DNA of 64,000 nucleotides from Salvelinus alpinus (taxonomy: Eukaryota > Chordata > Actinopteri > Salmoniformes > Salmonidae). Shown here piece after piece: positions 26,752 to 60,300 of this stretch. The stretch is taken from assembly GCF_045679555.1 (NCBI RefSeq), contig NC_092089.1, forward strand, positions 1,936,663-2,000,662, given 5' to 3'. Position numbers and translations under genes: made by a program. Position 1 is the first letter of the stretch. Each line of letters starts with the position of its first letter. The notes beneath the pieces were generated by a model, which was not told where the DNA came from, searched no databases, and saw only the letters and a list, made by a program, of their open reading frames with translations.

Positions 26752-29700
26752 GAGGCTCTCCATCTCTACCAGTAGTAACTACAGTACTGAGGCTCTCCAT
26801 CTCTACCAGTAGTAACTACAGTACTGAGGCTCTCCATCTCTACCAGTAGTAACTACAGTACTGAGGCTCTCCATCTCTACCAGTAGTAACTACAGTACTG
26901 AGGCTCTCCATCTCTACCAGTAGTAACTACAGTACTGAGGCTCTCCATCTCTACCAGTAGTAACTACAGTACTGAGGCTCTCCATCTCTACCAGTAGTAA
27001 CTACATGACTGAGTTACTCCATCTCTACCAGTAGTAACTACAGTACTGAGGCTCTCTATCTCTACCAGTAGTAACTACAGTACTGAGGCTCTCCATCTCT
27101 ACCAGTAGTAACTACAGTACTGAGGCTCCATCTCTACCAGTAGTAACTACAGTACTGAGGCTCTCCATCTCTACCAGTAGTAACTACAGTACTGAGGCTC
27201 TCCATCTCTACCAGTAGTAACTACAGTACTGAGGCTCTCCATCTCTACCAGTAGTAACTACAGTACTGAGGCTCTCCATCTCTACCAGTAGTAACAACAG
27301 TACTGAGTTACTCCATCTCTACCAGTAGTAACTACATGACTGAGGTTCTCCATCTCTACCAGTAGTAACTACAGTACTGAGGCTCTCCATCTCTACCAGT
27401 AGTAACTACAGTACTGAGGCTCTCCATCTCTACCAGTAGTAACTACAGTACTGAGGCTCTCCATCTCTACCAGTAGTAACTACAGTACTGAGGCTCTCCA
27501 TCTCTACCAGTAGTAACTACAGTACTGAGGCTCTCCATCTCTACCAGTAGTAACTACAGTACTGAGGCTCTCCATCTCTACCAGTAGTAACTACAGTACT
27601 GAGGCTCTCCATCTCTACCAGTAGTAACTACAGTACTGAGGCTCTCCATCTCTACCAGTAGTAACTACAGTACTGAGGCTCTCCATCTCTACCAGTAGTA
27701 ACTACAGTACTGAGGCTCTCCATCTCTACCAGTAGTAACAACAGTACTGAGTTACTCCATCTCTACCAGTAGTAACTACATGACTGAGTTACTCCATCTC
27801 TACCAGTAGTAACTACAGTACTGAGGCTCTCCATCTCTACCAGTAGTAACTACAGTACTGAGGCTCTCCATCTCTACCAGTAGTAACTACAGTACTGAGG
27901 CTCTCCATCTCTACCAGTAGTAACTACAGTACTGAGGCTCTCCATCTCTACCAGTAGTAACAACAGTACTGAGTTACTCCATCTCTACCAGTAGTAACTA
28001 CATGACTGAGGTTCTCCATCTCTACCAGTAGTAACTACAGTACTGAGGCTCTCCATCTCTACCAGTAGTAACTACAGTACTGAGGCTCTCCATCTCTACC
28101 AGTAGTAACTACAGTACTGAGGCTCTCCATCTCTACCAGTAGTAACTACAGTACTGAGGCTCTCCATCTCTACCAGTAGTAACTACAGTACTGAGGTTCT
28201 CCATCTCTACCAGTAGTAACTACAGTACTGAGGCTCTCCATCTCTACCAGTAGTAACTACAGTACTGAGGCTCTCCATCTCTACCAGTAGTAACTACAGT
28301 ACTGAGGCTCCATCTCTACCAGTAGTAACTACAGTACTGAGGCTCTCCATCTCTACCAGTAGTAACTACAGTACTGAGGCTCTCCATCTCTACCAGTAGT
28401 AACAACAGTACTGAGGCTCTCTATCTCTACCAGTAGTAACTACAGTACTGAGGCTCTCTATCTCTACCAGTAGTAACAAAAGCACTGAGGCTCTCCATCT
28501 CTACCAGTAGTAACTACAGTACTGAGGCTCTCCATCTCTACCAGTAGTAACTACAGTACTGAGGCTCTCCATCTCTACCAGTAGTAACTACAGTACTGAG
28601 GCTCTCCATCTCTACCAGTAGTAACTACAGTACTGAGGCTCTCCATCTCTACCAGTAGTAACTACAGTACTGAGGCTCTCCATCTCTACCAGTAGTAACT
28701 ACAGTACTGAGGCTCTCTATCTCTACCAGTAGTAACTACAGTACTGAGGCTCTCCATCTCTACCAGTAGTAACTACAGTACTGAGGCTCTCTATCTCTAC
28801 CAGTAGTAACAACAGTACTGAGGCTCTCTATCTCTACCAGTAGTAACAACAGTACTGGGGCTCTCCATCTCTACCAGTAGTAACTACAGTACTGAGGCTC
28901 TCCATCTCTACCAGTAGTAACAACAGTACTGAGTTACTCCATCTCTACCAGTAGTAACTACATGACTGAGGCTCTCCATCTCTACCAGTAGTAACTACCG
29001 TACTGAGGCTCTCCATCTCTACCAGTAGTAACTACAGTACTGAGGCTCTCTATCTCTACCGGTAGTAACAACAGTACTGAGGCTCTCTATCTCTACCGGT
29101 AGTAACAACAGTACTGGGGCTCTCCATCTCTACCAGTAGTAACTACAGTACTGAGGCTCTCCATCTCTACCAGTAGTAACAACAGTACTGAGGTTCTCCA
29201 TCTCTACCAGTAGTAACTACAGTACTGAGGCTCTCCATCTCTACCAGTAGTAACTACAGTACTGAGGCTCTCCATCTCTACCAGTAGTAACTACAGTACT
29301 GAGGCTCTCCATCTCTACCAGTAGTAACTACAGTACTGAGGCTCTCCATCTCTACCAGTAGTAACTACAGTACTGAGGCTCTCCATCTCTACCAGTAGTA
29401 ACTACAGTACTGAGGTTCTCCATCTCTACCAGTAGTAACTACAGTACTGAGGCTCTCCATCTCTACCAGTAGTAACTACAGTACTGAGGCTCTCCATCTC
29501 TACCAGTAGTAACTACAGTACTGAGGCTCCATCTCTACCAGTAGTAACTACAGTACTGAGGCTCTCCATCTCTACCAGTAGTAACTACAGTACTGAGGCT
29601 CTCTATCTCTACCAGTAGTAACAACAGTACTGAGGCTCTCTATCTCTACCAGTAGTAACAACAGTACTGGGGCTCTCTATCTCTACCAGTAGTAACTACA

Positions 29701-32700
29701 GTACTGAGGCTCTCCATCTCTACCAGTAGTAACTACAGTACTGAGGCTCTCCATCTCTACCAGTAGTAACAACAGTACTGAGTTACTCCATCTCTACCAG
29801 TAGTAACTACATGACTGAGGCTCTCCATCTCTACCAGTAGTAACTACAGTACTGAGGCTCTCCATCTCTACCAGTAGTAACTACAGTACTGAGGCTCTCC
29901 ATCTCTACCAGTAGTAACTACAGTACTGAGGCTCCATCTCTACCAGTAGTAACTACAGTACTGAGGCTCTCCATCTCTACCAGTAGTAACTACAGTACTG
30001 AGGCTCTCCATCTCTACCAGTAGTAACAACAGTACTGAGGCTCTCTATCTCTACCAGTAGTAACTACAGTACTGAGGCTCTCCATCTCTACCAGTAGTAA
30101 CTACAGTACTGAGGCTCTCCATCTCTACCAGTAGTAACTACAGTACTGAGGCTCTCCATCTCTACCAGTAGTAACTACAGTACTGAGGCTCTCTATCTCT
30201 ACCAGTAGTAACTACAGTACTGAGGCTCTCCATCTCTACCAGTAGTAACTACAGTACTGAGGCTCTCTATCTCTACCAGTAGTAACAACAGTACTGAGGC
30301 TCTCTATCTCTACCAGTAGTAACAACAGTACTGGGGCTCTCTATCTCTACCAGTAGTAACTACAGTACTGAGGCTCTCCATCTCTACCAGTAGTAACTAC
30401 AGTACTGAGGCTCTCCATCTCTACCAGTAGTAACAACAGTACTGAGTTACTCCATCTCTACCAGTATTAACTACATGACTGAGGCTCTCCATCTCTACCA
30501 GTAGTAACTACAGTACTGAGGCTCTCCATCTCTACCAGTAGTAACAACAGTACTGAGTTACTCCATCTCTACCAGTATTAACTACATGACTGAGGTTCTC
30601 CATCTCTACCAGTAGTAACTACAGTACTGAGGCTCTCCATCTCTACCAGTAGTAACTACAGTACTGAGGCTCTCCATCTCTACCAGTAGTAACAACAGTA
30701 CTGAGGCTCTCTATCTCTACCAGTAGTAACTACAGTACTGAGGCTCCATCTCTACCAGTAGTAACTACAGTACTGAGGCTCTCTATCTCTACCAGTAGTA
30801 ACAACAGCACTGAGGCTCTCCATCTCTACCAGTAGTAACTACAGTACTGAGGCTCTCCATCTCTACCAGTAGTAACTACAGTACTGAGGCTCTCCATCTC
30901 TACCAGTAGTAACAACAGTACTGAGGCTCTCTATCTCTACCAGTAGTAACTACAGTACTGAGGCTCCATCTCTACCAGTAGTAACTACAGTACTGAGGCT
31001 CTCTATCTCTACCAGTAGTAACAACAGCACTGAGGCTCTCCATCTCTACCAGTAGTAACTACAGTACTGAGGCTCTATCTCTACCAGTAGTAACTACAGT
31101 ACTGAGGCTCCATCTCTACCAGTAGTAACTACAGTACTGAGGCTCTCTATCTCTACCAGTAGTAACAACAGCACTGAGGCTCTCCATCTCTACCAGTAGT
31201 AACTACAGTACTGAGGCTCTCCATCTCCACCAGTAGTAACTACAGTACTGAGGCTCTCCATCTCTACCAGTAGTAACTACAGTACTGAGGTTCTCCATCT
31301 CTACCAGTAGTAACTACAGTACTGAGGCTCTCTATGTCTACCAGTAGTAACAAAAGCACTGAGGCTCTCCATCTCTACCAGTAGTAACTACAGTACTGAG
31401 GCTCTCCATCTCTACCAGTAGTAACTACAGTACTGAGGCTCTCCATCTCTACCAGTAGTAACTACAGTACTGAGGCTCTCCATCTCTACCAGTAGTAACT
31501 ACAGTACTGAGGCTCTCCATCTCTACCAGTAGTAACTACAGTACTGAGGCTCTCCATCTCTACCAGTAGTAACTACAGTACTGAGGCTCTCTATCTCTAC
31601 CAGTAGTAACTACAGTACTGAGGCTCTCCATCTCTACCAGTAGTAACTACAGTACTGAGGCTCTCTATCTCTACCAGTAGTAACAAAAGTACTGAGGCTC
31701 TCTATCTCTACCAGTAGTAACAACAGTACTGGGGCTCTCTATCTCTACCAGTAGTAACTACAGTACTGAGGCTCTCCATCTCTACCAGTAGTAACTACAG
31801 TACTGAGGCTCTCCATCTCTACCAGTAGTAACAACAGTACTGAGTTACTCCATCTCTACCAGTAGTAACTACATGACTGAGGCTCTCCATCTCTACCAGT
31901 AGTAACTACAGTACTGAGGCTCTCCATCTCTACCAGTAGTAACTACAGTACTGAGGCTCTCCATCTCTACCAGTAGTAACTACAGTACTGAGGCTCCATC
32001 TCTACCAGTAGTAACTACAGTACTGAGGCTCTCCATCTCTACCAGTAGTAACTACAGTACTGAGGCTCCATCTCTACCAGTAGTAACTACAGTACTGAGG
32101 CTCTCCATCTCTACCAGTAGTAACAACAGTACTGAGGCTCTCTATCTCTACCAGTAGTAACTACAGTACTGAGGCTCCATCTCTACCAGTAGTAACTACA
32201 GTACTGAGGCTCTCTATCTCTACCAGTAGTAACAACAGCACTGAGGCTCTCCATCTCTACCAGTAGTAACTACAGTACTGAGGCTCTCCATCTCTACCAG
32301 TAGTAACTACAGTACTGAGGCTCTCCATCTCTACCAGTAGTAACTACAGTACTGAGGCTCTCCATCTCTACCAGTAGTAACAACAGTACTGAGGCTCTCT
32401 ATCTCTACCAGTAGTAACTACAGTACTGAGGCTCCATCTCTACCAGTAGTAACTACAGTACTGAGGCTCTCTATCTCTACCAGTAGTAACAACAGCACTG
32501 AGGCTCTCCATCTCTACCAGTAGTAACTACAGTACTGAGGCTCTCCATCTCCACCAGTAGTAACTACAGTACTGAGGCTCTCCATCTCTACCAGTAGTAA
32601 CTACAGTACTGAGGTTCTCCATCTCTACCAGTAGTAACTACAGTACTGAGGCTCTCTATGTCTACCAGTAGTAACAAAAGCACTGAGGCTCTCCATCTCT

Positions 32701-35700
32701 ACCAGTAGTAACTACAGTACTGAGGCTCTCCATCTCTACCAGTAGTAACTACAGTACAGAGGCTCTCCATCTCTACCAGTAGTAACTACAGTACTGAGGC
32801 TCTCCATCTCTACCAGTAGTAACTACAGTACTGAGGCTCTCCATCTCTACCAGTAGTAACTACAGTACTGAGGCTCTCCATCTCTACCAGTAGTAACTAC
32901 AGTACTGAGGCTCTCTATCTCTACCAGTAGTAACTACAGTACTGAGGCTCTCCATCTCTACCAGTAGTAACTACAGTACTGAGGCTCTCTATCTCTACCA
33001 GTAGTAACTACAGTACTGAGGCTCTCCATCTCTACCAGTAGTAACTACAGTACTGGGGCTCTCTATCTCTACCAGTAGTAACTACAGTACTGAGGCTCTC
33101 CATCTCTACCAGTAGTAACTACAGTACTGAGGCTCTCCATCTCTACCAGTAGTAACAACAGTACTGAGTTACTCCATCTCTACCAGTAGTAACTACATGA
33201 CTGAGGCTCTCCATCTCTACCAGTAGTAACTACAGTACTGAGGCTCTCCATCTCTACCAGTAGTAACTACAGTACTGAGGCTCTCCATCTCTACCAGTAG
33301 TAACTACAGTACTGAGGCTCCATCTCTACCAGTAGTAACTACAGTACTGAGGCTCTCCATCTCTACCAGTAGTAACTACAGTACTGAGGCTCTCCATCTC
33401 TACCAGTAGTAACAACAGTACTGAGGCTCTCTATCTCTACCAGTAGTAACTACAGTACTGAGGCTCCATCTCTACCAGTAGTAACTACAGTACTGAGGCT
33501 CTCTATCTCTACCAGTAGTAACAACAGCACTGAGGCTCTCCATCTCTACCAGTAGTAACTACAGTACTGAGGCTCTCCATCTCTACCAGTAGTAACTACA
33601 GTACTGAGGCTCTCTATCTCTACCAGTAGTAACTACAGTACTGAGGCTCTCCATCTCTACCAGTAGTAACTACAGTACTGAGGCTCTCCATCTCTACCAG
33701 TAGTAACTACAGTACTGAGGCTCTCTATCTCTACCAGTAGTAACTACAGTACTGAGGCTCTCTATCTCTACCAGTAGTAACTACAGTACTGAGGTTCTCC
33801 ATCTCTACCAGTAGTAATTACAGTACTGAGGCTCTCCATCTCTACCAGTAGTAACTACAGTACTGAGGCTCTCTATCTCTACCAGTAGTAACTACAGTAC
33901 TGAGGTTCTCCATCTCTACCAGTAGTAACTACAGTACTGAGGTTCTCCATCTCTACCAGTAGTAACTACAGTACTGAGGCTCTCTATCTCTACCAGTAGT
34001 AACTACAGTACTGAGGCTCTCCATCTCTACCAGTAGTAACTACAGCACTGAGGCTCTCCATCTCTACCAGTAGTAACTACATGACTGAGGTTCTCCATCT
34101 CTACCAGTAGTAACTACAGTACTGAGGCTCCATCTCTACCAGTAGTAACTACAGTACTGAGGTTCTCCATCTCTACCAGTAGTAACTACAGTACTGAGGC
34201 TCTCTATCTCTACCAGTAGTAACAACAGTACTGAGGCTTTCCATCTCTACCAGTAGTAACTACAGTACTGGGGCTCCATCTCTACCAGTAGTAACTACAG
34301 TACTGAGGCTCTCTATCTCTACCAGTAGTAACTACAGTACTGAGGCTCTCCATCTCTACCAGTAGTAACTACAGTACTGAGGCTCTCCATCTCTACCAGT
34401 AGTAACTACAGTACTGAGGCTCTCCATCTCTACCAGTAGTAACTACAGTACTGAGGCTCTCCATCTCTACCAGTAGTAACTACAGTACTGAGGCTCTCCA
34501 TCTCTACCAGTAGTAACTACAGTACTGAGGCTCTCCATCTCTACCAGTAGTAACTACGGTACTGAGGCTCTCCATCTCTACCAGTAGTAACTACAGTACT
34601 GAGGCTCTCTATCTCTACCAGTAGTAACTACAGTACTGAGGCTCTCCATCTCTACCAGTAGTAACTACAGTACTGAGGCTCTCTATCTCTACCAGTAGTA
34701 ACAACAGTACTGAGGCTCTCTATCTCTACCAGTAGTAACAACAGTACTGGGGCTCTCCATCTCTACCAGTAGTAACTACAGTACTGAGGCTCTCCATCTC
34801 TACCAGTAGTAACAACAGTACTGAGTTACTCCATCTCTACCAGTAGTAACTACATGACTGAGGTTCTCCATCTCTACCAGTAGTAACTACAGTACTGAGG
34901 CTCTCCATCTCTACCAGTAGTAACTACAGTACTGAGGCTCTCCATCTCTACCAGTAGTAACTACAGTACTGAGGCTCTCCATCTCTACCAGTAGTAACTA
35001 CAGTACTGAGGCTCTCCATCTCTACCAGTAGTAACTACAGTACTGAGGTTCTCCATCTCTACCAGTAGTAACTACAGTACTGAGGCGCTCCATCTCTACC
35101 AGTAGTAACTACAGTACTGAGGCTCTCCATCTCTACCAGTAGTAACTACAGTACTGAGCCTCCATCTCTACCAGTAGTAACTACAGTACTGAGGCTCTCC
35201 ATCTCTACCAGTAGTAACTACAGTACTGAGGCTCTCCATCTCTACCAGTAGTAACAACAGTACTGAGGCTCTCTATCTCTACCAGTAGTAACTACAGTAC
35301 TGAGGCTCTCTATCTCTACCAGTAGTAACAAAAGCACTGAGGCTCTCCATCTCTACCAGTAGTAACTACAGTACTGAGGCTCTCCATCTCTACCAGTAGT
35401 AACTACAGTACTGAGGCTCTCCATCTCTACCAGTAGTAACTACAGTACTGAGGCTCTCCATCTCTACCAGTAGTAACTACAGTACTGAGGCTCTCCATCT
35501 CTACCAGTAGTAACTACAGTACTGAGGCTCTCCATCTCTACCAGTAGTAACTACAGTACTGAGGCTCTCTATCTCTACCAGTAGTAACTACAGTACTGAG
35601 GATCTCCATCTCTACCAGTAGTAACTACAGTACTGAGGCTCTCTATCTCTACCAGTAGTAACAACAGTACTGAGGCTCTCTATCTCTACCAGTAGTAACA

Positions 35701-38700
35701 ACAGTACTGGCGCTCTCCATCTCTACCAGTAGTAACTACAGTACTGAGGCTCTCCATCTCTACCAGTAGTAACAACAGTACTGAGTTACTCCATCTCTAC
35801 CAGTAGTAACTACATGACTGAGGCTCTCCATCTCTACCAGTAGTAACTACAGTACTGAGGCTCTCCATCTCTACCAGTAGTAACTACAGTACTGAGGCTC
35901 TCTATTTCTACCGGTAGTAACAACAGTACTGAGGCTCTCTATCTCTACCGGTAGTAACAACAGTACTGGGGCTCTCCATCTCTACCAGTAGTAACTACAG
36001 TACTGAGGCTCTCCATCTCTACCAGTAGTAACAACAGTACTGAGGTTCTCCATCTCTACCAGTAGTAACTACAGTACTGAGGCTCTCCATCTCTACCAGT
36101 AGTAACTACAGTACTGAGGCTCTCCATCTCTACCAGTAGTAACTACAGTACTGAGGCTCTCCATCTCTACCAGTAGTAACTACAGTACTGAGGCTCTCCA
36201 TCTCTACCAGTAGTAACTACAGTACTGAGGCTCTCCATCTCTACCAGTAGTAACTACAGTACTGAGGTTCTCCATCTCTACCAGCAGTAACTACAGTACT
36301 GAGGCTCTCCATCTCTACCAGTAGTAACTACAGTACTGAGGCTCTCCATCTCTACCAGTAGTAACTACAGTACTGAGGCTCCATCTCTACCAGTAGTAAC
36401 TACAGTACTGAGGCTCTCCATCTCTACCAGTAGTAACTACAGTACTGAGGCTCTCCATCTCTACCAGTAGTAACAACAGTACTGAGGCTCTCTATCTCTA
36501 CCAGTAGTAACTACAGTACTGAGGCTCTCTATCTCTACCAGTAGTAACAAAAGCACTGAGGCTCTCCATCTCTACCAGTAGTAACTACAGTACTGAGGCT
36601 CTCCATCTCTACCAGTAGTAACTACAGTACTGAGGCTCTCCATCTCTACCAGTAGTAACTACAGTACTGAGGCTCTCCATCTCTACCAGTAGTAACTACA
36701 GTACTGAGGCTCTCCATCTCTACCAGTAGTAACTACAGTACTGAGGCTCTCCATCTCTACCAGTAGTAACTACAGTACTGAGGCTCTCTATCTCTACCAG
36801 TAGTAACTACAGTACTGAGGCTCTCCATCTCTACCAGTAGTAACTACAGTACTGAGGCTCTCTATCTCTACCAGTAGTAACAACAGTACTGAGGCTCTCT
36901 ATCTCTACCAGTAGTAACAACAGTACTGGGGCTCTCTATCTCTACCAGTAGTAACTACAGTACTGAGGCTCTCCATCTCTACCAGTAGTAACTACAGTAC
37001 TGAGGCTCTCCATCTCTACCAGTAGTAACAACAGTACTGAGTTACTCCATCTCTACCAGTAGTAACTACATGACTGAGGCTCTCCATCTCTACCAGTAGT
37101 AACTACAGTACTGAGGCTCTCCATCTCTACCAGTAGTAACTACAGTACTGAGGCTCTCCATCTCTACCAGTAGTAACTACAGTACTGAGGCTCTCCATCT
37201 CTACCAGTAGTAACTACAGTACTGAGGCTCTCCATCTCTACCAGTAGTAACAACAGTACTGAGGCTCTCTATCTCTACCAGTAGTAACTACAGTACTGAG
37301 GCTCTCCATCTCTACCAGTAGTAACTACAGTACTGAGGCTCTCTATCTCTACCAGTAGTAACAACAGCACTGAGGCTCTCCATCTCTACCAGTAGTAACT
37401 ACAGTACTGAGGCTCTCCATCTCCACCAGTAGTAACTACAGTACTGAGGCTCTCCATCTCTACCAGTAGTAACTACAGTACTGAGGTTCTCCATCTCTAC
37501 CAGTAGTAACTACAGTACTGAGGCTCTCTATCTCTACCAGTAGTAACAAAAGCACTGAGGCTCTCCATCTCTACCAGTAGTAACTACAGTACTGAGGCTC
37601 TCCATCTCTACCAGTAGTAACTACAGTACTGAGGCTCTCCATCTCTACCAGTAGTAACTACAGTACTGAGGCTCTCCATCTCTACCAGTAGTAACTACAG
37701 TACTGAGGCTCTCCATCTCTACCAGTAGTAACTACAGTACTGAGGCTCTCCATCTCTACCAGTAGTAACTACAGTACTGAGGCTCTCCATCTCTACCAGT
37801 AGTAACTACAGTACTGAGGCTCTCCATCTCTACCAGTAGTAACTACAGTACTGAGGCTCTCCATCTCTACCAGTAGTAACTACAGTACTGAGGCTCTCCA
37901 TCTCTACCAGTAGTAACTACAGTACTGAGGTTCTCCATCTCTACCAGCAGTAACTACAGTACTGAGGCTCTCCATCTCTACCAGTAGTAACTACAGTACT
38001 GAGGCTCTCCATCTCTACCAGTAGTAACTACAGTACTGAGGCTCCATCTCTACCAGTAGTAACTACAGTACTGAGGCTCTCCATCTCTACCAGTAGTAAC
38101 TACAGTACTGAGGCTCTCCATCTCTACCAGTAGTAACAACAGTACTGAGGCTCTCTATCTCTACCAGTAGTAACTACAGTACTGAGGCTCTCTATCTCTA
38201 CCAGTAGTAACAAAAGCACTGAGGCTCTCCATCTCTACCAGTAGTAACTACAGTACTGAGGCTCTCCATCTCTACCAGTAGTAACTACAGTACTGAGGCT
38301 CTCCATCTCTACCAGTAGTAACTACAGTACTGAGGCTCTCCATCTCTACCAGTAGTAACTACAGTACTGAGGCTCTCCATCTCTACCAGTAGTAACTACA
38401 GTACTGAGGCTCTCCATCTCTACCAGTAGTAACTACAGTACTGAGGCTCTCCATCTCTACCAGTAGTAACTACAGTACTGAGGCTCTCCATCTCTACCAG
38501 TAGTAACTACAGTACTGAGGCTCTCCATCTCTACCAGTAGTAACTACAGTACTGAGGCTCTCCATCTCTACCAGTAGTAACTACAGTACTGAGGTTCTCC
38601 ATCTCTACCAGCAGTAACTACAGTACTGAGGCTCTCCATCTCTACCAGTAGTAACTACAGTACTGAGGCTCTCCATCTCTACCAGTAGTAACTACAGTAC

Positions 38701-41700
38701 TGAGGCTCCATCTCTACCAGTAGTAACTACAGTACTGAGGCTCTCCATCTCTACCAGTAGTAACTACAGTACTGAGGCTCTCCATCTCTACCAGTAGTAA
38801 CAACAGTACTGAGGCTCTCTATCTCTACCAGTAGTAACTACAGTACTGAGGCTCTCTATCTCTACCAGTAGTAACAAAAGCACTGAGGCTCTCCATCTCT
38901 ACCAGTAGTAACTACAGTACTGAGGCTCTCCATCTCTACCAGTAGTAACTACAGTACTGAGGCTCTCCATCTCTACCAGTAGTAACTACAGTACTGAGGC
39001 TCTCCATCTCTACCAGTAGTAACTACAGTACTGAGGCTCTCCATCTCTACCAGTAGTAACTACAGTACTGAGGCTCTCCATCTCTACCAGTAGTAACTAC
39101 AGTACTGAGGCTCTCTATCTCTACCAGTAGTAACTACAGTACTGAGGCTCTCCATCTCTACCAGTAGTAACTACAGTACTGAGGCTCTCTATCTCTACCA
39201 GTAGTAACAACAGTACTGAGGCTCTCTATCTCTACCAGTAGTAACAACAGTACTGGGGCTCTCTATCTCTACCAGTAGTAACTACAGTACTGAGGCTCTC
39301 CATCTCTACCAGTAGTAACTACAGTACTGAGGCTCTCCATCTCTACCAGTAGTAACAACAGTACTGAGTTACTCCATCTCTACCAGTAGTAACTACATGA
39401 CTGAGGCTCTCCATCTCTACCAGTAGTAACTACAGTACTGAGGCTCTCCATCTCTACCAGTAGTAACTACAGTACTGAGGTTCTCCATCTCTACCAGCAG
39501 TAACTACAGTACTGAGGCTCTCCATCTCTACCAGTAGTAACTACAGTACTGAGGCTCTCCATCTCTACCAGTAGTAACTACAGTACTGAGGCTCCATCTC
39601 TACCAGTAGTAACTACAGTACTGAGGCTCTCCATCTCTACCAGTAGTAACTACAGTACTGAGGCTCTCCATCTCTACCAGTAGTAACAACAGTACTGAGG
39701 CTCTCTATCTCTACCAGTAGTAACTACAGTACTGAGGCTCTCTATCTCTACCAGTAGTAACAAAAGCACTGAGGCTCTCCATCTCTACCAGTAGTAACTA
39801 CAGTACTGAGGCTCTCCATCTCTACCAGTAGTAACTACAGTACTGAGGCTCTCCATCTCTACCAGTAGTAACTACAGTACTGAGGCTCTCCATCTCTACC
39901 AGTAGTAACTACAGTACTGAGGCTCTCCATCTCTACCAGTAGTAACTACAGTACTGAGGCTCTCCATCTCTACCAGTAGTAACTACAGTACTGAGGCTCT
40001 CTATCTCTACCAGTAGTAACTACAGTACTGAGGCTCTCCATCTCTACCAGTAGTAACTACAGTACTGAGGCTCTCTATCTCTACCAGTAGTAACAACAGT
40101 ACTGAGGCTCTCTATCTCTACCAGTAGTAACAACAGTACTGGGGCTCTCTATCTCTACCAGTAGTAACTACAGTACTGAGGCTCTCCATCTCTACCAGTA
40201 GTAACTACAGTACTGAGGCTCTCCATCTCTACCAGTAGTAACAACAGTACTGAGTTACTCCATCTCTACCAGTAGTAACTACATGACTGAGGCTCTCCAT
40301 CTCTACCAGTAGTAACTACAGTACTGAGGCTCTCCATCTCTACCAGTAGTAACTACAGTACTGAGGTTCTCCATCTCTACCAGCAGTAACTACAGTACTG
40401 AGGCTCTCCATCTCTACCAGTAGTAACTACAGTACTGAGGCTCTCCATCTCTACCAGTAGTAACTACAGTACTGAGGCTCCATCTCTACCAGTAGTAACT
40501 ACAGTACTGAGGCTCTCCATCTCTACCAGTAGTAACTACAGTACTGAGGCTCTCCATCTCTACCAGTAGTAACAACAGTACTGAGGCTCTCTATCTCTAC
40601 CAGTAGTAACTACAGTACTGAGGCTCTCTATCTCTACCAGTAGTAACAAAAGCACTGAGGCTCTCCATCTCTACCAGTAGTAACTACAGTACTGAGGCTC
40701 TCCATCTCTACCAGTAGTAACTACAGTACTGAGGCTCTCCATCTCTACCAGTAGTAACTACAGTACTGAGGCTCTCCATCTCTACCAGTAGTAACTACAG
40801 TACTGAGGCTCTCCATCTCTACCAGTAGTAACTACAGTACTGAGGCTCTCCATCTCTACCAGTAGTAACTACAGTACTGAGGCTCTCTATCTCTACCAGT
40901 AGTAACTACAGTACTGAGGCTCTCCATCTCTACCAGTAGTAACTACAGTACTGAGGCTCTCTATCTCTACCAGTAGTAACAACAGTACTGAGGCTCTCTA
41001 TCTCTACCAGTAGTAACAACAGTACTGGGGCTCTCTATCTCTACCAGTAGTAACTACAGTACTGAGGCTCTCCATCTCTACCAGTAGTAACTACAGTACT
41101 GAGGCTCTCCATCTCTACCAGTAGTAACAACAGTACTGAGTTACTCCATCTCTACCAGTAGTAACTACATGACTGAGGCTCTCCATCTCTACCAGTAGTA
41201 ACTACAGTACTGAGGCTCTCCATCTCTACCAGTAGTAACTACAGTACTGAGGTTCTCCATCTCTACCAGCAGTAACTACAGTACTGAGGCTCTCCATCTC
41301 TACCAGTAGTAACTACAGTACTGAGGCTCTCCATCTCTACCAGTAGTAACTACAGTACTGAGGCTCCATCTCTACCAGTAGTAACTACAGTACTGAGGCT
41401 CTCCATCTCTACCAGTAGTAACTACAGTACTGAGGCTCTCCATCTCTACCAGTAGTAACAACAGTACTGAGGCTCTCTATCTCTACCAGTAGTAACTACA
41501 GTACTGAGGCTCTCTATCTCTACCAGTAGTAACAAAAGCACTGAGGCTCTCCATCTCTACCAGTAGTAACTACAGTACTGAGGCTCTCCATCTCTACCAG
41601 TAGTAACTACAGTACTGAGGCTCTCCATCTCTACCAGTAGTAACTACAGTACTGAGGCTCTCCATCTCTACCAGTAGTAACTACAGTACTGAGGCTCTCT

Positions 41701-43585
41701 ATCTCTACCAGTAGTAACTACAGTACTGAGGCTCTCCATCTCTACCAGTAGTAACTACAGTACTGAGGCTCTCTATCTCTACCAGTAGTAACAACAGTAC
41801 TGAGGCTCTCTATCTCTACCAGTAGTAACAACAGTACTGGGGCTCTCTATCTCTACCAGTAGTAACTACAGTACTGAGGCTCTCCATCTCTACCAGTAGT
41901 AACTACAGTACTGAGGCTCTCCATCTCTACCAGTAGTAACAACAGTACTGAGTTACTCCATCTCTACCAGTAGTAACTACATGACTGAGGCTCTCCATCT
42001 CTACCAGTAGTAACTACAGTACTGAGGCTCTCCATCTCTACCAGTAGTAACTACAGTACTGAGGCTCTCCATCTCTACCAGTAGTAACTACAGTACTGAG
42101 GCTCTCCATCTCTACCAGTAGTAACTACAGTACTGAGGCTCTCCATCTCTACCAGTAGTAACAACAGTACTGAGGCTCTCTATCTCTACCAGTAGTAACT
42201 ACAGTACTGAGGCTCTCTATTTCTACCGGTAGTAACAACAGTACTGAGGCTCTCTATCTCTACCGGTAGTAACAACAGTACTGGGGCTCTCCATCTCTAC
42301 CAGTAGTAACTACAGTACTGAGGCTCTCCATCTCTACCAGTAGTAACAACAGTACTGAGGTTCTCCATCTCTACCAGTAGTAACTACAGTACTGAGGCTC
42401 TCCATCTCTACCAGTAGTAACTACAGTACTGAGGCTCTCCATCTCTACCAGTAGTAACTACAGTACTGAGGCTCTCCATCTCTACCAGTAGTAACTACAG
42501 TACTGAGGCTCTCCATCTCTACCAGTAGTAACTACAGTACTGAGGCTCTCCATCTCTACCAGTAGTAACTACAGTACTGAGGTTCTCCATCTCTACCAGC
42601 AGTAACTACAGTACTGAGGCTCTCCATCTCTACCAGTAGTAACTACAGTACTGAGGCTCTCCATCTCTACCAGTAGTAACTACAGTACTGAGGCTCCATC
42701 TCTACCAGTAGTAACTACAGTACTGAGGCTCTCCATCTCTACCAGTAGTAACTACAGTACTGAGGCTCTCCATCTCTACCAGTAGTAACAACAGTACTGA
42801 GGCTCTCTATCTCTACCAGTAGTAACTACAGTACTGAGGCTCTCTATCTCTACCAGTAGTAACAAAAGCACTGAGGCTCTCCATCTCTACCAGTAGTAAC
42901 TACAGTACTGAGGCTCTCCATCTCTACCAGTAGTAACTACAGTACTGAGGCTCTCCATCTCTACCAGTAGTAACTACAGTACTGAGGCTCTCCATCTCTA
43001 CCAGTAGTAACTACAGTACTGAGGCTCTCTATCTCTACCAGTAGTAACTACAGTACTGAGGCTCTCCATCTCTACCAGTAGTAACTACAGTACTGAGGCT
43101 CTCTATCTCTACCAGTAGTAACAACAGTACTGAGGCTCTCTATCTCTACCAGTAGTAACAACAGTACTGGGGCTCTCTATCTCTACCAGTAGTAACTACA
43201 GTACTGAGGCTCTCCATCTCTACCAGTAGTAACAACAGTACTGAGTTACTCCATCTCTACCAGTAGTAACTACATGACTGAGGCTCTCCATCTCTACCAG
43301 TAGTAACTACAGTACTGAGGCTCTCCATCTCTACCAGTAGTAACTACAGTACTGAGGCTCTCCATCTCTACCAGTAGTAACTACAGTACTGAGGCTCTCT
43401 ATCTCTACCAGTAGTAACTACAGTACTGAGGCTCTCCATCTCTACCAGTAGTAACTACAGTACTGAGGCTCTCCATCTCTACCAGTAGTAACTACAGTAC
43501 TGAGGCTCTCCATCTCTACCAGTAGTAACTACAGTACTGAGGCTCTCCATCTCTACCAGTAGTAACTACAGTACTGAGGCTCTCC
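26752..43585 (+). repeat. 16.8-kb minisatellite, 37-bp unit, about 455 copies, with higher-order repeats
   Basis: The standard unit holds GAGGCTCTCCATCTCTACCA then GTAGTAACTACAGTACT. Recurrent variants are a 35-bp unit (GAGGCTCCATC), AACAACAGTACT, CTCTATCTC, AACAAAAGCACT, a paired GAGTTACTCC...TACATGACT block, and GGGGCTC. Variants recur in fixed order, for example the GAGTTACTCC marker at 39365, 40252, 41138, 41950 and 43243, giving intervals of 887, 886, 812 and 1293 that equal whole numbers of units minus one short unit. Most copies carry the palindrome CAGTACTG with a ScaI site. There is no ORF of any length inside. It lies between the GEM promoter and the RAD54B 3' end. Confidence 0.98.
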
Positions 43586-44536: not shown

Positions 44537-44729
<193 letters not shown>

Positions 44730-44768
44730 TGTGGTGTGTGAGTGTGAGTGTGTGTGTGTGTGTGTGTG

Positions 44769-45819
44769 TTACTGAGTGGTGTGTGAGATGGTGGACTGGA
44801 AGGCGAAGGAGATGTGGTTTCGTGCGTGGTCCAGGTAAGCATCTCTGAAGGTGTGCGTGTCCCCTGCGAAGTGTCTCCACTGCATCAGCTCTGACATGCT
44901 CAGATGCTTCTGCCCCGCCCCACCACGGTCACCTTGACGACCCAGCTGGCACGGCCTATCAGACGCAGGCTCCTCATCCTCTCCTTCTTCTATAATACAC
45001 ACAAGAAACACATTAAATAAAAACACAAGCAGACAACGGGTGTGAATATATAGATATATATATATATTACCCGGGGCTGATCCGTCCATACTGCAGCTGC
45101 AGTGTAGCAGGTCGTGAGTGAGACAGGGTGTGTCTGTCAGGCTGAAGAGATCTCGCAGCTCATTGGAGGAGAAGCTGGTGTGCTCCGCCCCTTTCCCCAA
45201 GTCCACCACTGTCCCAGAAAGCCCCTGTTTGGACACCTGCCTCTGGAAGATACGCTCCTCTATGGTACCTGCAGTGAGCAGGCGGTAGATGTGAACAGTC
45301 TTCTTCTGTCCGTCTCTCCACACTCGTGCCATTGCCTGGAGGGGGACAAACACACAGACAGACAGACACACAGACAGACACACACACACATCAGCCCAAC
45401 TATCACATTAGGAGGAAGGCCTCTTCCTCATCCTCACTCCTCCAAGAGCATAGCAGGTACTGACTGACCAGTAACGTGTACATGTGTGTTTCAGATGTGA
45501 ACGAAACATACACTAATGGTGGTGAGTGAGAGTGTGTGTGTGAGTGTGTGTGTACCTGTATATCGTTGGCAGGGTTCCAGTCGATGTCGTATAGGACCAG
45601 GTGGGAGGCGCCGATCAGGTTAAGCCCCACCCCTCCGGCTTTAGAACTCAGGAGGAAAAGGAAGTGGGCGGAGTGAGGGCTGTTGAAGTTGTCCACCAAT
45701 CGCTGCCTCTGGATGGTGGGGGTGTTGCCGTCCAGGCGACAGTAGGTGTAGTCCAGGTGGACACACAGGTCCTGGAGTAGGTCTAACGTCTGAGTGTAGT
45801 TGGACACCAACACCACCCT

Positions 45820-45889
<70 letters not shown>

Positions 45890-48800
45890 TCAAGATGGTC
45901 AAGATCATCTCACAGTTATGTGCCAGAGTATGAGTGTGTCAACCATAGAATTAGAATACTAGACTGGACATGAAGCTTCTTATGATGGTCTAAAGGTCAG
46001 CCATGTTGGTCAGGGAGTTGGACAACCATGGTTAGCCAGTGCTGTGATATGATATTGTATAAAGTAATGCATTTGAAGAATTTATCTGCACTGTGTTTGT
46101 TAGCCAGCCAGTTTTAGAGGAATGATTCTACAAATGTTTCTAATTAACTGCCAATATGCCAACATTCATCAGTTGACGATAGGACTGAGACAAGTTGTAA
46201 ATGTAACAAGTACTGATAGTGTATCATATAACTCACACCTTTCCAAGAAAACTAAAATGTTGATATTTATGGTCTGTTTACATATATTTCAAAGGCTATT
46301 TATAAAGAAAATGTGTATAAAATCCATATAAATTTTATTTATAATAATATGAAAATATTTTAGGTTGACAATAATTCTATTACACAATTTCTGATATCAC
46401 ATGCTTTGCTTTTATTTTCCTCTATAAGAAACATCTGGATTCTGCCTCTACTGCCATTCATTCCAATTAGACAGGTTTGGATTTCTCCCTGGCCAATATG
46501 GCTGCCATTTTCACCCCATTCTGGAACTTTGAGGGTTTATGACAGCCCATCTAGTTATTTAATAGGATCCGTATGGTGTCAACAAACCAATGCCAGTGTG
46601 CCCGGATCCCTTGACACACTTCATACTAACACGCACACACAGACACACACGCACAGACACACACGCACACCTACCTGTCAGTAGGGCTGAGGTGGCGAAT
46701 AGTGGTCAGTAGGTCAGACAGGACCAGTAGTTTCCCTGAATCAGCTGTACTGAAGCCCCCAGAAGAGTAAGACTCTGGAAAGACACCTCTTAGCCCTTCA
46801 TACAGAGAACCCTCTGCTGAGCCGCCATCAGAACGCTCCTGGAACACACACACAATCATCATCATCATCATCATCACCATCATCATCAGCGTGTCTTTAT
46901 GTGTCATACCTGTACAGTGGAGTAGAGCAGTCCTGGGTGGTTGCAGAGCTTTTTCAGGGCGGTGATGCAGGCGAGGTGTGTGTGAGTCTGTGTCGACCCC
47001 TGTAGACAGGCTCGGATGACACGGTGCGAGAGGAGAGCCTGGTACAGCTCCCGCTGCAAGGGGGAGGGGCTACAGAACACTGTCCAATCATGACGAGGTG
47101 GCAGGTAGCGGTTGATGATCTCTTGGGTCCGCCTCAGAATAAACAGACCAGTCAGACGAGAGAGCTCAGCCGCTCGCTCCTCCCCCAAAACTCTCTCCTC
47201 CTACAGGGAGAGATATAGAGAAGGAATGAAGGGAGAGACAGAGATGGGGACAGTACCTCAGTGCAGGAGGGCTGTTGTGAGCGTACAATAGAGAGATAGT
47301 GTAGAGGTATAGAGACAGAGATAGAGATGGGGACAGTACCTCAGTGCAGGAGGGCTGTTGTGAGAGTACAATAGAGAGAAAGTGTAGAGGTATAGAGATG
47401 GGGACAGTACCTCAGTGCAGGAGGGCTGTTGTGAGCGTACAATAGAGAGATAGTGTAGAGGTATAGAGAAAGAGATGGGGACAGTACCTCAGTGCAGGAG
47501 GGCTGTTGTGAGAGTACAATAGAGAGATAGTGTAGAGGTATAGAGAAAGAGATGGGGACAGTACCTCAGTGCAGGAGGGCTGTTGTGAGCGTACAATAGA
47601 GAGATAGTGTAGAGGTATAGAGATGGGGACAGTACCTCAGTGCAGGAGGGCTGTTGTGAGAGTACAATAGAGAGAAAGTGTAGAGGTATAGAGACAGAGA
47701 TGGGGACAGTACCTCAGTGCAGGAGGGCTGTTGTGAGAGTACAATAGAGAGATAGTGTAGAGGTATAGAGACAGAGAAAGAGATGGGGACAGTACCTCAG
47801 TGCAGGAGGGCTGTTGTGAGAGTACAATAGAGAGAAAGTGTAGAGGTATAGAGACAGAGATGGGGACAGTACCTCAGTGCAGGAGGGCTGTTGTGAGAGT
47901 ACAATAGAGAGATAGTGTAGAGGTATAGAGACAGAGAAAGAGATGGGGACAGTACCTCAGTGCAGGAGGGCTGTTGTGAGCGTACAATAGAGAGATAGTG
48001 TAGAGGTATAGAGAAAGAGATGGGGACAGTACCTCAGTGCAGGAGGGCTGTTGTGAGAGTACAATAGAGAGATAGTGTAGAGGTATAGAGACAGAGATGG
48101 GGACAGTACCTCAGTGCAGGAGGGCTGTTGTGAGTGTACAATAGAGAGAAAATGTAGAGGTATAGAGACAGAGATAGAGATGGGAACAGTACCTCAGTGC
48201 AGGAGGGCTGTTGTGAGCGTACAATAGAGAGAAAGTGTAGAGGTATAGAGATAGAGATGGGGACAGTACCTCAGTGCAGGAGGGCTGTTGTGAGCGTACA
48301 ATAGAGAGAAAGTGTAGAGGTATAGAGATAGAGATGGGGACAGTACCTCAGTGCAGGAGGGCTGTTGTGAGCGTACAATAGAGAGATAGTGTAGAGGTAT
48401 AGAGATAGAGATGGGGACAGTACCTCAGTGCAGGAGGGCTGTTGTGAGCGTACAATAGAGAGAACGTGTAGAGGTATAGAGAAAGAGATGGGGACAGTAC
48501 CTCAGTGCAGGAGGGCTGTTGTGAGCGTACAATAGAGAGAACGTGTAGAGGTATAGAGAAAGAGATGGGGACAGTACCTCAGTGCAGGAGGGCTGTTGTG
48601 AGAGTACAATAGAGAGATAGAGTAGAGGTATAGAGATAGAGATGGGGACAGTACCTCAGTGCAGGAGGGCTGTTGTGAGCGTACAATAGAGAGATAGTGT
48701 AGAGGTATAGAGAAAGAGATGGGGACAGTACCTCAGTGCAGGAGGGCTGTTGTGAGAGTACAATAGAGAGAAAGTGTAGAGGTATAGAGACAGAGATGGG

Positions 48801-51800
48801 GACAGTACCTCAGTGCAGGAGGGCTGTTGTGAGAGTACAATAGAGAGATAGTGTAGAGGTATAGAGACAGAGAAAGAGATGGGGACAGTACCTCAGTGCA
48901 GGAGGGCTGTTGTGAGCGTACAATAGAGAGATAGTGTAGAGGTATAGAGACAGAGATAGAGATGGGGACAGTACCTCAGTGCAGGAGGGCTGTTGTGAGC
49001 GTACAATAGAGAGATAGTGTAGAGGTATAGAGAAAGAGATGGGGACAGTACCTCAGTGCAGGAGGGCTGTTGTGAGAGTACAATAGAGAGAAAGTGTAGA
49101 GGTATAGAGACAGAGATGGGGACAGTACCTCAGTGCAGGAGGGCTGTTGTGAGAGTACAATAGAGAGATAGTGTAGAGGTATAGAGACAGAGAAAGAGAT
49201 GGGGACAGTACCTCAGTGCAGGAGGGCTGTTGTGAGCGTACAATAGAGAGATAGTGTAGAGGTATAGAGACAGAGATGGGGACAGTACCTCAGTGCAGGA
49301 GGGCTGTTGTGAGAGTACAATAGAGAGATAGTGTAGAGGTATAGAGATGGGGACAGTACCTCAGTGCAGGAGGGCTGTTGTGAGCGTACAATAGAGAGAT
49401 AGTGTAGAGGTATAGAGAAAGAGAGTGTAGATGTGTAATGTACCTCAGTGCAGAAGGGCTGTCGGGAGCGGAGGATTGGCTCCTCGTACACCTTCCTGTA
49501 GGCAGCAGACGACCCCAGAATGCCCGGGTTCACAAACTCTATGATGGCATAGAACTCCTGCAGGTCATTCTGGACAGGAGTTCCTACAGTACAGCACACA
49601 CAATATATCAGAAAACACTAGGAGAAAGTAAAAGGTCAATAAAACAGAGGGCTGTGTGTGTACCTGTCAGAATAACTCTGCGTGTACAGCTGAGACCACT
49701 GAGGGCAGAGGAAGTCTTGATGCTGCTGTTCTTCAACCTGTGACCCTCATCACAGATCACCAGCTCAAACTCCAGCTTCTGTACCTAGACACACACACAC
49801 ACCTTTATGATGTCCCATGAGTGTATCATCCATCGTACTCCTAATCTGTGTCATTTAGGAGTTGAGGTGTAATTCAACAGTGTTGTAACACTGGTACTTC
49901 CCACCCCTGTTAGATAAGCTGCTGTGAACCAACTCACCACTTCCAGAGAGCGTAGCAGCATCTCATAGCTGATCACTAATACACTGTGGAGAGGAGACGC
50001 TGCAAACAGCTCCACCCTGTGGTCCTAATGAACAACGCGGAACACACATCACCATATGGATCAGAAACAGCACTACAGGGAAACACACTCTTCCTCTCTT
50101 TCTCCAAACACACCCCTACCTGGTTAACAGTGTAGACACTGATCAAACACACCCCGACCTGGTTAACAGTGTAGACACTGATCAAACACACCCCGACCTG
50201 GTTAACAGTGTAGACACTGATCAAACACACCCCTACCTGGTTAACAGTGTAGACACTGATCAAACACACCCCGACCTGGTTAACAGTGTAGACACTGATC
50301 AAACACACCCCTACCTGGTTAACAGTGTAGACACTGATCAAACACACCCCTACCTGGTTAACAGTGTAGACACTGATCAAACACACCCCTACCTGGTTAA
50401 CAGTGTAGACACTGATCACACACCCCGACCTGGTTAACAGTGTAGACACTGATCAAACACACCCCGACCTGGTTAACAGTGTAGACACTGATCAAACACA
50501 CCCCGACCTGGTTAACAGTGTAGACACTGATCAAACACACCCCTACCTGGTTAACAGTGTAGACACTGATCAAACACACCCCGACCTGGTTAACAGTGTA
50601 GACACTGATCAAACACACCCCTACCTGGTTAACAGTGTAGACACTGATCAAACACACCCCTACCTGGTTAACAGTGTAGACACTGATCAAACACACCCCT
50701 ACCTGGTTAACAGTGTAGACACTGATCAAACACACCCCGACCTGGTTAACAGTGTAGACACTGATCAAACACACTCCTACCTGGTTAACAGTGTAGACAC
50801 TGATCAAACACACCCCTACCTGGTTAACAGTGTAGACACTGATCAAACACACCCCTACCTGGTTAACAGTGTAGACACTGATCAAACACACCCCTACCTG
50901 GTTAACAGTGTAGACACTGATCAAACACACCCCGACCTGGTTAACAGTGTAGACACTGATCAAACACACCCCTACCTGGTTAACAGTGTAGACACTGATC
51001 AAACACACCCCGACCTGGTTAACAGTGTAGACACTGATCAAACACACCCCTACCTGGTTAACAGTGTAGACACTGATCAAACACACCCCTACCTGGTTAA
51101 CAGTGTAGACACTGATCAAACACACCCCGACCTGGTTAACAGTGTAGACACTGATCAAACACACCCCGACCTGGTTAACAGTGTAGACACTGATCAAACA
51201 CACCCCTACCTGGTTAACAGTGTAGACGTTGATCCTCTCACTGCCAAGCCACTTCTTAAACTCCGCCCCCCAGTTCTGCACCAGGCTGCCGGGGGCAACC
51301 ACCAGCACAAGCTTAGCAACCGGCTTCCCGCCGTATGGGCCCTGCTTTAGCAGCGTCCACGTCAAAGCCACGCTCTGGAGGGTCTTACCCAGACCCATCT
51401 CATCTGCCAGGATAGCACCGTACCTACATGTAGCCCTGACACACACACACACCCCACACACATAATCAATCAAAGTAAATAAATAGCAGCCCCAGCACAG
51501 AGCCTTGTGGAACACAACATACATTTTGTAGTGATCAGAGGATTCATCATTCATCATCTCCCATTACCTCATCCCCATGACACACTCGTAGAGGAACAGC
51601 AGACCGTCTCGCTGGTGGGGTCGGAGGTGAGCGGTCAAGTAGGGGTCAACCACCACATCCACCAGTGGGAGGCCTGCCTTGTTATACGCCCACTGGTGAT
51701 TGGTTGAGGGCCGGGGCATGACAATGGCTCCTACACACACCATTAGAGAGATGATGTGTGTGGTGTGTTTGAAGTGTGTGAGAATGTGTAACTTCATGTG

Positions 51801-57378: not shown

Positions 57379-60300
57379 TTATAGGGGCAGTGGTAGTCCA
57401 TGTCTCAGCCTGGCTGCCCTCAGTTTCTCTACTTTGATTTTTGCTCTCAGAAGCTCCTCCTCCAGTTCCTGCTTCCTCTTTAGCCCCTCCCTCTTCTCCT
57501 CCAGGTATACGCCCATCTTTCTGTGATTGGTCATGACCTGCTCGTGCTCCTCCTTGGCCAGCTGAAGGGGACGGAGCCTGTCAGGGTCACGGCGGGGGTA
57601 GTGGTCATGAGGGTAAAGGTCACGTTGCAGTGGAACGGGTGAGGTGGAGAGGGGCAGGACGACGGAGGATGGGCAGGGAGAGAGGGAGCCGTCATAACCA
57701 TGGACACTGCCCAACTCCTCATCTTCCTCCTCTGCCCCCTCTCCTCCTAGCACCACCCCCACACGCGTGGAGAGGATGGTCAGGTCTGGCGGAGGCTTCA
57801 CGTCCACATCCTGGTCCAGCCTGACCACATCCTGGTCCAGCCTGACCACATCCTGGTCCAGCCTGACCACATCCTGGTCCAGGTGGTGTGTGACGGGGTT
57901 TGATGGGTAGTCTGGGAGGGAGGAGCTGCTGCCAGGTTGCTCCATGGGAGAGTCATGCTTATACATCATCCTGCAGATAAACAGAATAATACAGCTTTAT
58001 TACTGTATCATTATACATCATCCTGCAGATAAACAGAATAATAAAGCTTTATTACTGTATCATTATACATCATCCTGCAGATAAACAGAATAATAAAGCT
58101 TTATTACTGTATCATTATAGATCACCCTGCAGATAAACAGAATAATACAGCTTCATTACTGTATCATTATAGATCATCCTGCAGATTAACAGTATAATAC
58201 AGCTTTATTACTGTATCATTATACATCACCCTGCAGATAAACAGAATAATACAGCTTTATTACTGTATCATTATAGATCACCCTGCAGATAAACAGAATA
58301 ATACAGCTTTATTACTGTATCATTATACATCACCCAGCAGAGACAATATGGAATAGAATACAGCTTTATTACTACAGCCATACATGTATAAGTGGCACTA
58401 GGTGGGGGTATTGAGAGTATTCAATCAATCAAATGTATTTATAAAGCCCTTTTTACATCAGCCGATGTCACAAAGTGATGTACAGAAACCCAGCATAAAA
58501 CCACAAACAGCAAGAAATGCAGGTGTAGAAGACCGGCTGTGTAGAAATACAACCGGTCTTCGGGAAGGTCAAAAACATTCTTCTTAAAACCCTTTTCATG
58601 ACCATCTCATACTTTGCTAAAGAATGCATTCTGCTACTGTGGGCTAATACCTCTCCTACGTTTAAAATGTGAATTGACCAGATTGTTGACTTTCTGCCTC
58701 TTGAAAAGCGGGTTTGATAGACTCGTCTCCACAACTCAAATATATTTTGAACTGGACAGAATGAATGGGATGATATGTGTGTAGACATGACGTGTAAGGG
58801 TGCTGTAAACATGACGTGTAAGGGTGCTGTAGACATGACGTGTAAGGTGCTGTAAACATGACGTGTAAGGCGCTGTAGACATGACGTGTAAGGTGCTGTA
58901 GACATGACGTGTAAGGTGCTGTAAACATGACGTGTAAGGGCGCTGTAGACATGACGTGTAAGGGCGCTGTAGACATGACGTGTAAGGGCGCTGTAAACAT
59001 GACGTGTAAGGGCGCTGTAAACATGACGTGTAAGGGCGCTGTAGACATGACGTGTAAGGTGCTGTAAACATGACGTGTAAGGGCGCTGTAGACATGACGT
59101 GTAAGGGCGCTGTAAACATGACGTGTAGGGTGCTGTAAACATGACGTGTAAGGGCGCTGTAGACAAGGCCTTTTAAGGGCGCTGTAGACATGACGTGTAA
59201 GGGCGCTGTAGACATGACGTGTAAGGGTGCTGTAAACATGACGTGTAAGGGCGCTGTAAACATGACGTGTAAGGGCGCTGTAAACATGACGTGTAAGGGC
59301 GCTGTAAACATGACGTGTAAGGCGCTGTAAACATGACGTGTAAGGGCGCTGTAAACATGACGTGTAAGGGCGCTGTAAACATGACGTGTAAGGGCGCTGT
59401 AGACATGACGTGTAAGGGCGCTGTAAACATGACGTGTAAGGCGCTGTAGACATGACGTGTAAGGGCGCTGTAGACATGACGTGTAAGGTGCTGTAAACAT
59501 GACGTGTAAGGGCGCTGTAAACATGACGTGTAAGGGCGCTGTAAACATGACGTGTAAGGGCGCTGTAAACATGACGTGTAAGGCGCTGTAAACATGACGT
59601 GTAAGGGCGCTGTAAACATGACGTGTAAGGGCGCTGTAGACATGACGTGTAAGGGCGCTGTAAACATGACGTGTAAGGCGCTGTAGACATGACGTGTAAG
59701 GGCGCTGTAAACATGACGTGTAAGGGCGCTGTAAACATGACGTGTAAGGGCGCTGTAAACATGACGTGTAAGGGCGCTGTAGACATGACGTGTAAGGGCG
59801 CTGTAAACATGACGTGTAAGGCGCTGTAGACATGACGTGTAAGGGCGCTGTAAACATGACGTGTAAGGGCGCTGTAAACATGACGTGTAAGGCGCTGTAG
59901 ACATGACGTGTAAGGGCGCTGTAAACATGACGTGTAAGGGCGCTGTAAACATGACGTGTAAGGGCGCTGTAAACATGACGTGTAAGGGCGCTGTAAACAT
60001 GACGTGTAAGGGCGCTGTAAACATGACGTGTAAGGGCGCTGTAAACATGACGTGTAAGGGCGCTGTAAACATGACGTGTAAGGGCGCTGTAAACATGACG
60101 TGTAAGGGCTCTGTAAACATGACGTGTAAGGGCGCTGTAAACATGACGTGTAAGGGCGCTGTAGACATGACGTGTAAGGGCGCTGTAAACATGACGTGTA
60201 AGGCGCTGTAGACATGACGTGTAAGGGCGCTGTAAACATGACGTGTAAGGCGCTGTAGACATGACGTGTAAGGGCGCTGTAAACATGACGTGTAAGGGCG

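Follow-up and report, generated by a model that had tools for sequence, protein, structure and literature searches.

How does splicing proceed where an exon is followed by dozens of 5' splice sites in line instead of one? This question is raised by RAD54B of Salvelinus alpinus, in which an exon end and its donor are repeated in tandem along the adjoining intron. The original prediction offered two readings of this locus, a ready-made splice-choice device that could insert n x 13 residues into the protein, and a site where splicing copes with 29 competing donors. To answer the question we analyzed a window, the whole 64,000-nucleotide stretch C4:1936663-2000662 in the 2.37-Gb genome.

Two donor-bearing minisatellites in RAD54B

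RAD54B lies on the minus strand of the window, from residue 121 to its end (numbering of S. alpinus RAD54B, P0121), and its identity was established by comparison with whale shark RAD54B (67% identity over a 288-residue core). The coding exons are intact and, exon-edge residues aside, near-identical to P0121; the single difference seen is an Ile to Phe replacement in the segment RQPICTE, which reads RQPFCTE in the window. The neighboring gene is presumably FSBP, and an open frame in this apparent FSBP gene contains a perfect 21-bp repeat (3.8 copies at 57804-57882, encoding LDQDVVR repeats). The window as a whole is rich in repeats: TRF masks 31,675 of its 64,000 bases, and a 37-bp-unit array of 16.8 kb (26752-43585, 456 copies) lies just past the RAD54B 3' end, its counterpart in the paralogous region described below measuring ~7.8 kb.

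Table 1 Coordinates of RAD54B exons and repeat features in the window
Feature	Position	Strand	Remarks
Exon encoding helicase motifs I and Ia	51210..51435	-	End ...INVYTVNQ; true donor CAG/GTAGGG
39-bp minisatellite opening the intron	50105..51209	-	28 extra copies of exon end and donor; unit of 14 intron and 25 exon-end bases
37-bp unit	50393..50429	-	Reading frame lost here after 20 extra copies
Exon next after the 39-bp array	49938..50024	-	29 residues
Exon before the second array	49444..49583	-	End ...RQPFCTE; true donor GAG/GTACAT
Second minisatellite	47234..49443	-	Steps of 71-84 bp, mostly 77; 28 extra copies of the preceding exon's end with donor GAG/GTACTG
Exon next after the second array	46910..47200	-	Starts at 47200
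End of last exon including stop codon, tandem duplicate	44598..44860	-	126 bp x 2.1

A listing of CAG/GT sites after the exon carrying motifs I and Ia revealed 29 in-line donors, with the last exon-like bases at 51210, 51171 and so on to 50120, in steps of 39 bp and a single one of 37 bp. TRF likewise reported a period of 39 with 29.0 copies and 97% matches (50105-51234), and both results bear out the 28 extra copies that had been predicted. The donors had been divided into 17 GTAGGG and 12 GTCGGG sites; the latter number is correct, while the former breaks down into 16 GTAGGG sites and one GTAGGA (50781). Thirteen of the 29 donors depart from GTAGGG at +3 or +6, and among the extra copies 15 are identical to the true donor (GTAGGG) and one is close (GTAGGA). 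Every unit departs from the true exon end at the same two of 25 bases, the exon having AAC (Asn) where the units have AGT (Ser). Full-length units (27, the 28th being the 37-bp one) differ from each other at two positions, chiefly donor +3.

The reading frame in the window stays open over the first 20 extra copies out of 28 and is lost at the 37-bp unit, as originally described. A random intron part leaves a 39-bp unit open in 81% of cases, given the 39-bp length and an exon part in frame; multiplied by the ~1/3 of lengths that are divisible by three, this gives a chance of ~0.27, about one quarter, for an open frame. The observed frame is thus near chance and is not kept beyond it. The peptide inserted by a unit is strongly hydrophobic (GRAVY 1.34 vs 0.11 for the exon), and neither the open frame nor the hydrophobic peptide speaks for selection.

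The original prediction did not include a second array, which fills the intron after the exon at 49583-49444 and whose units carry CTGCACTGAG/GTACTG. It comprises 29 donors in all, the last at 47257. The two arrays are unrelated to each other and share the same design in the same gene. Frame-breaking donors, also absent from the earlier description, predominate in the second array, where just 1 of the 28 extra donors is frame-safe without a stop codon in the window, and 1 of 12 in the paralogue.

A scan with the last 20 bases of each exon (at most 4 mismatches, 6 kb on either side) found 28 copies at each of two exon ends and none at the other six of the eight covered, and the same scan found tandem copies at 0 of 9 exon starts; two further ends without a marker, one with a marker that could not be located, and the exons outside the window are not among the eight. 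Two 28-copy arrays at exon ends are not chance. The number of exactly 28 extra copies in both looks like a coincidence, the paralogue having 24 and 12. A wider occurrence of exon-end arrays was considered in a nearby survey of 254 kb (C4:1936663-2190662; period 15-250, at least 3 copies), which yielded 75 arrays, with 19 of 150 array-strands bearing a donor scoring at least 6 in at least 40% of copies; the 77-bp array fell below this donor threshold. The RAD54B 39-bp array alone followed a recognized exon, which is weak evidence against such arrays being common nearby, other genes there being unannotated. Genome-wide counts gave no support for an enrichment of donors in the genome's minisatellites (14,180 triple motifs vs 17,894 for the backwards motif), nor did a fold of 311 bases of DNA support a hairpin in the unit as driver of expansion (z-score -0.03).

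A paralogous region and the history of the arrays

The window aligns end to end with a region at ~27.62 Mb on the same contig, 25.6 Mb away (C4 about 27.576-27.633 Mb), a paralogue that had also gone unnoticed in the original prediction. Identity is 94-100% in most of the collinear blocks outside repeats and 80-93% in seven of them, with insertions on both sides. Both arrays recur there with different copy numbers, 25 donors vs 29 in the window for the 39-bp array and 13 vs 29 for the second. The paralogue 39-bp array contains 25 live donors and one dead site (CAG/TTAGGG) with all steps in register, its frame is open at 24 of 24 extra donors, and its full-length units vary at three positions (25 units). 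The two regions also differ in how types A and C of the unit are interspersed along the 39-bp array. The paralogue second array has 13 exact donors and one 154-bp step, which probably hides a diverged copy. The locus is therefore more striking than first noted, since the arrangement occurs twice in one gene and is common to the paralogue.

The two regions may represent a whole-genome-duplication pair, a later segmental duplication or a misjoin; among the matches listed, two Salvelinus fontinalis RAD54B proteins are assigned to contigs that differ in length. The segment 53444-55065 is absent from the collinear paralogue alignment and contains a minus-strand open frame (54716-53832) that encodes a YADD motif. 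By eye this frame resembles a non-LTR retrotransposon reverse transcriptase, and it was perhaps inserted after the duplication. Upstream of the second array, codon 49453-49455 is TTC (Phe) in the window, ATC (Ile) in the paralogue and TCC (Ser) in the units read, and the first T of the window codon could reflect a small conversion from the second array, or chance.

The 39-bp array is young or well homogenized, as its full-length units vary at so few positions in either region. The residue at which units and exon differ offers a clue to its origin. Among the proteins with the junction displayed, Ser is found in Salmo trutta (P0128, P0183), Coregonus (P0141, P0160) and the outgroups Umbra, Esox and Dallia (P0135, P0136, P0138), and Asn in Salvelinus and Oncorhynchus; the array itself was read in the S. 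alpinus genome alone. On the simplest reading, the unit would have been copied from the exon before the Ser to Asn change, and hence before the split of Salvelinus and Oncorhynchus; a parallel change is an alternative.

Choice among the donors

To gain insight into donor use we examined 120 fish RAD54B proteins, the best of 7,002 matches and 18 of them salmonid by label; the records derive from public databases, many being predictions, and the set was clustered at 90%, so that rare isoforms could be hidden. The 13-residue insert was found in 0 of these 120 proteins, whose species may or may not carry the arrays, and the same 120 contained neither GVC nor more than one VYTVNQ-like word. The clean junction NQ/DHRVE is displayed by 16 of the 18 salmonid proteins, the pattern being unmatched in P0131 and P0133. 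A repeat-stretch search, scored on 102 repeat residues followed by the 19 that open the next exon, returned 16 matches, none with a repeat array. Fifteen are salmonid RAD54B proteins, all within the 120; their alignments span ~22% of the query, consistent with the final repeat end plus the next exon. The remaining match is a metagenomic protein with 39% identity. Neither the 120 proteins nor this search thus contained an isoform made with a downstream donor, although rare isoforms may exist beyond such protein records.

Donor strength was scored, as the original prediction had proposed, here with a position weight matrix based on human frequencies. The GTAGGG copies score the same as the true donor (9.0) and the GTCGGG copies are weaker (4.7), while the true donor of the second array scores 5.4 and its copies 4.0. 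Since copies in the first array score like the true donor, position and not strength must decide there. An RNA fold of 400 bases covering the first eight donors showed the true donor to be the least open (0.22 vs 0.25-0.38), and none of the eight clearly stood out as more open. At the second array, frequent use of later donors would wreck the protein, and splicing must largely ignore them. First-donor use is therefore the likely rule there, and we consider it likely at both arrays. These data agree with the second original reading, in which splicing has to cope with 29 competing donors.

The explanation that we consider very probable is that two minisatellites captured 5' splice sites, that the first donor is used and that the arrays are passengers. 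Tandem duplication across RAD54B exon-intron boundaries would have produced two independent minisatellites, which would then have expanded and been homogenized, every unit carrying an exon end and a 5' splice site. Splicing would take the exon-proximal first donor, the remaining copies would leave with the intron, and the arrays would drift in length as tolerated passengers. The use of the first donor, modeled on human F7 (factor VII) intron 7, and the absence of function are both inferences. Against this explanation count the extra donors identical or close to the true one in the 39-bp array, the modest score gap in the second array, so that strength alone leaves first-donor choice unexplained, and the low openness of the true donor in the RNA fold.

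A length-variable device, in which some tissues would splice from later donors of the 39-bp array and thereby lengthen the stretch from motif Ia to motif II by n x 13 residues, could draw on the frame kept at most extra donors in the window and at all of them in the paralogue, and on the 15 extra donors identical to the true one. We nevertheless regard it as very unlikely, and this part of the original prediction is not supported: the insert appeared neither in the 120 listed fish proteins nor in the repeat-stretch search, the sister array is frame-breaking, the open frame is near chance, the insert is strongly hydrophobic, and donors decay, 13 of 29 having left GTAGGG in the window and one being dead in the paralogue. 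An assembly artefact, with repeats collapsed or inflated, has next to no likelihood. Arrays of this kind are hard to assemble, and the number of copies given may not be precise, but arrays of the same units and other lengths occur at two separate places of the contig with diverged flanks, and the differing interleaving of types A and C also argues against it.

The arrays might instead act as U1-binding sites that leave the exon end unchanged, raising exon definition or shielding the transcript from early cleavage, so that length tunes RAD54B expression. From 12 to 28 extra donor-like sites persist in each of the four arrays, as such a role would have it. The minisatellite in intron 7 of human F7 (IVS7) has 5-8 repeats, and its copy number is reportedly linked to F7 mRNA level. 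Against this stand the 12 of 29 donors in the weak GTCGGG form and the genome-wide donor triples (7446+6734 vs 8994+8900 for the backwards motif, a crude control, as microsatellites sway the counts), and we judge a U1-binding role unlikely. There is similarly a slim chance that the arrays are more than passengers: the dozens of U1 sites lined up behind two exons of this repair gene, and kept in both paralogues, would set RAD54B output through array length or yield minor repeat-bearing isoforms in the germ line.

Relation to known boundary repeats

The RAD54B arrays are of a kind already known and imply no new mechanism. The closest relative is the 37-bp minisatellite of human F7 IVS7. Its tandem units stand at the start of the intron; the first contains the natural 5' splice site, highly homologous ones follow, and only the most upstream donor is used (PMC6627357). 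In RAD54B, too, the unit consists of an exon end and a GT donor and the true donor lies in the first unit. F7 is described as having a "variable number" of repeats, against 29 donors in RAD54B (PMC6627357). RAD54B further differs in bearing two arrays per gene in two paralogues, and first-donor use, reported in F7, is a likely rather than a reported feature of RAD54B.

Two other systems share part of this design. Recently duplicated human genes in segmental duplications likewise contain minisatellites at exon-intron boundaries, with units averaging 30 bp and copy numbers that differ between paralogues; unlike RAD54B, they average 4 repetitions, and some give rise to new introns or to alternative transcripts, for which there is RNA evidence (De Grassi and Ciccarelli 2009, PMC2812944). 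Rainbow trout irak3 is also a salmonid gene with exon pieces repeated in the adjoining intron, but there an exon start is repeated (15-17 nt of exon 5, four times) along with exon 7 copies, whereas RAD54B repeats exon ends with donors 28 times (PMC6763605).

Such loci may lead aligners and annotators into error. For the choice of the spliceosome among identical neighboring 5' splice sites, F7 intron 7 is a natural model. RAD54B, with what looks like a larger version of the F7 repeat, offers a good natural test of this choice: gene and paralogue together provide four arrays of 29, 29, 25 and 13 donors. One pair leaves the frame mostly intact and the other breaks it, and together they allow first-donor choice to be measured across a far wider range.
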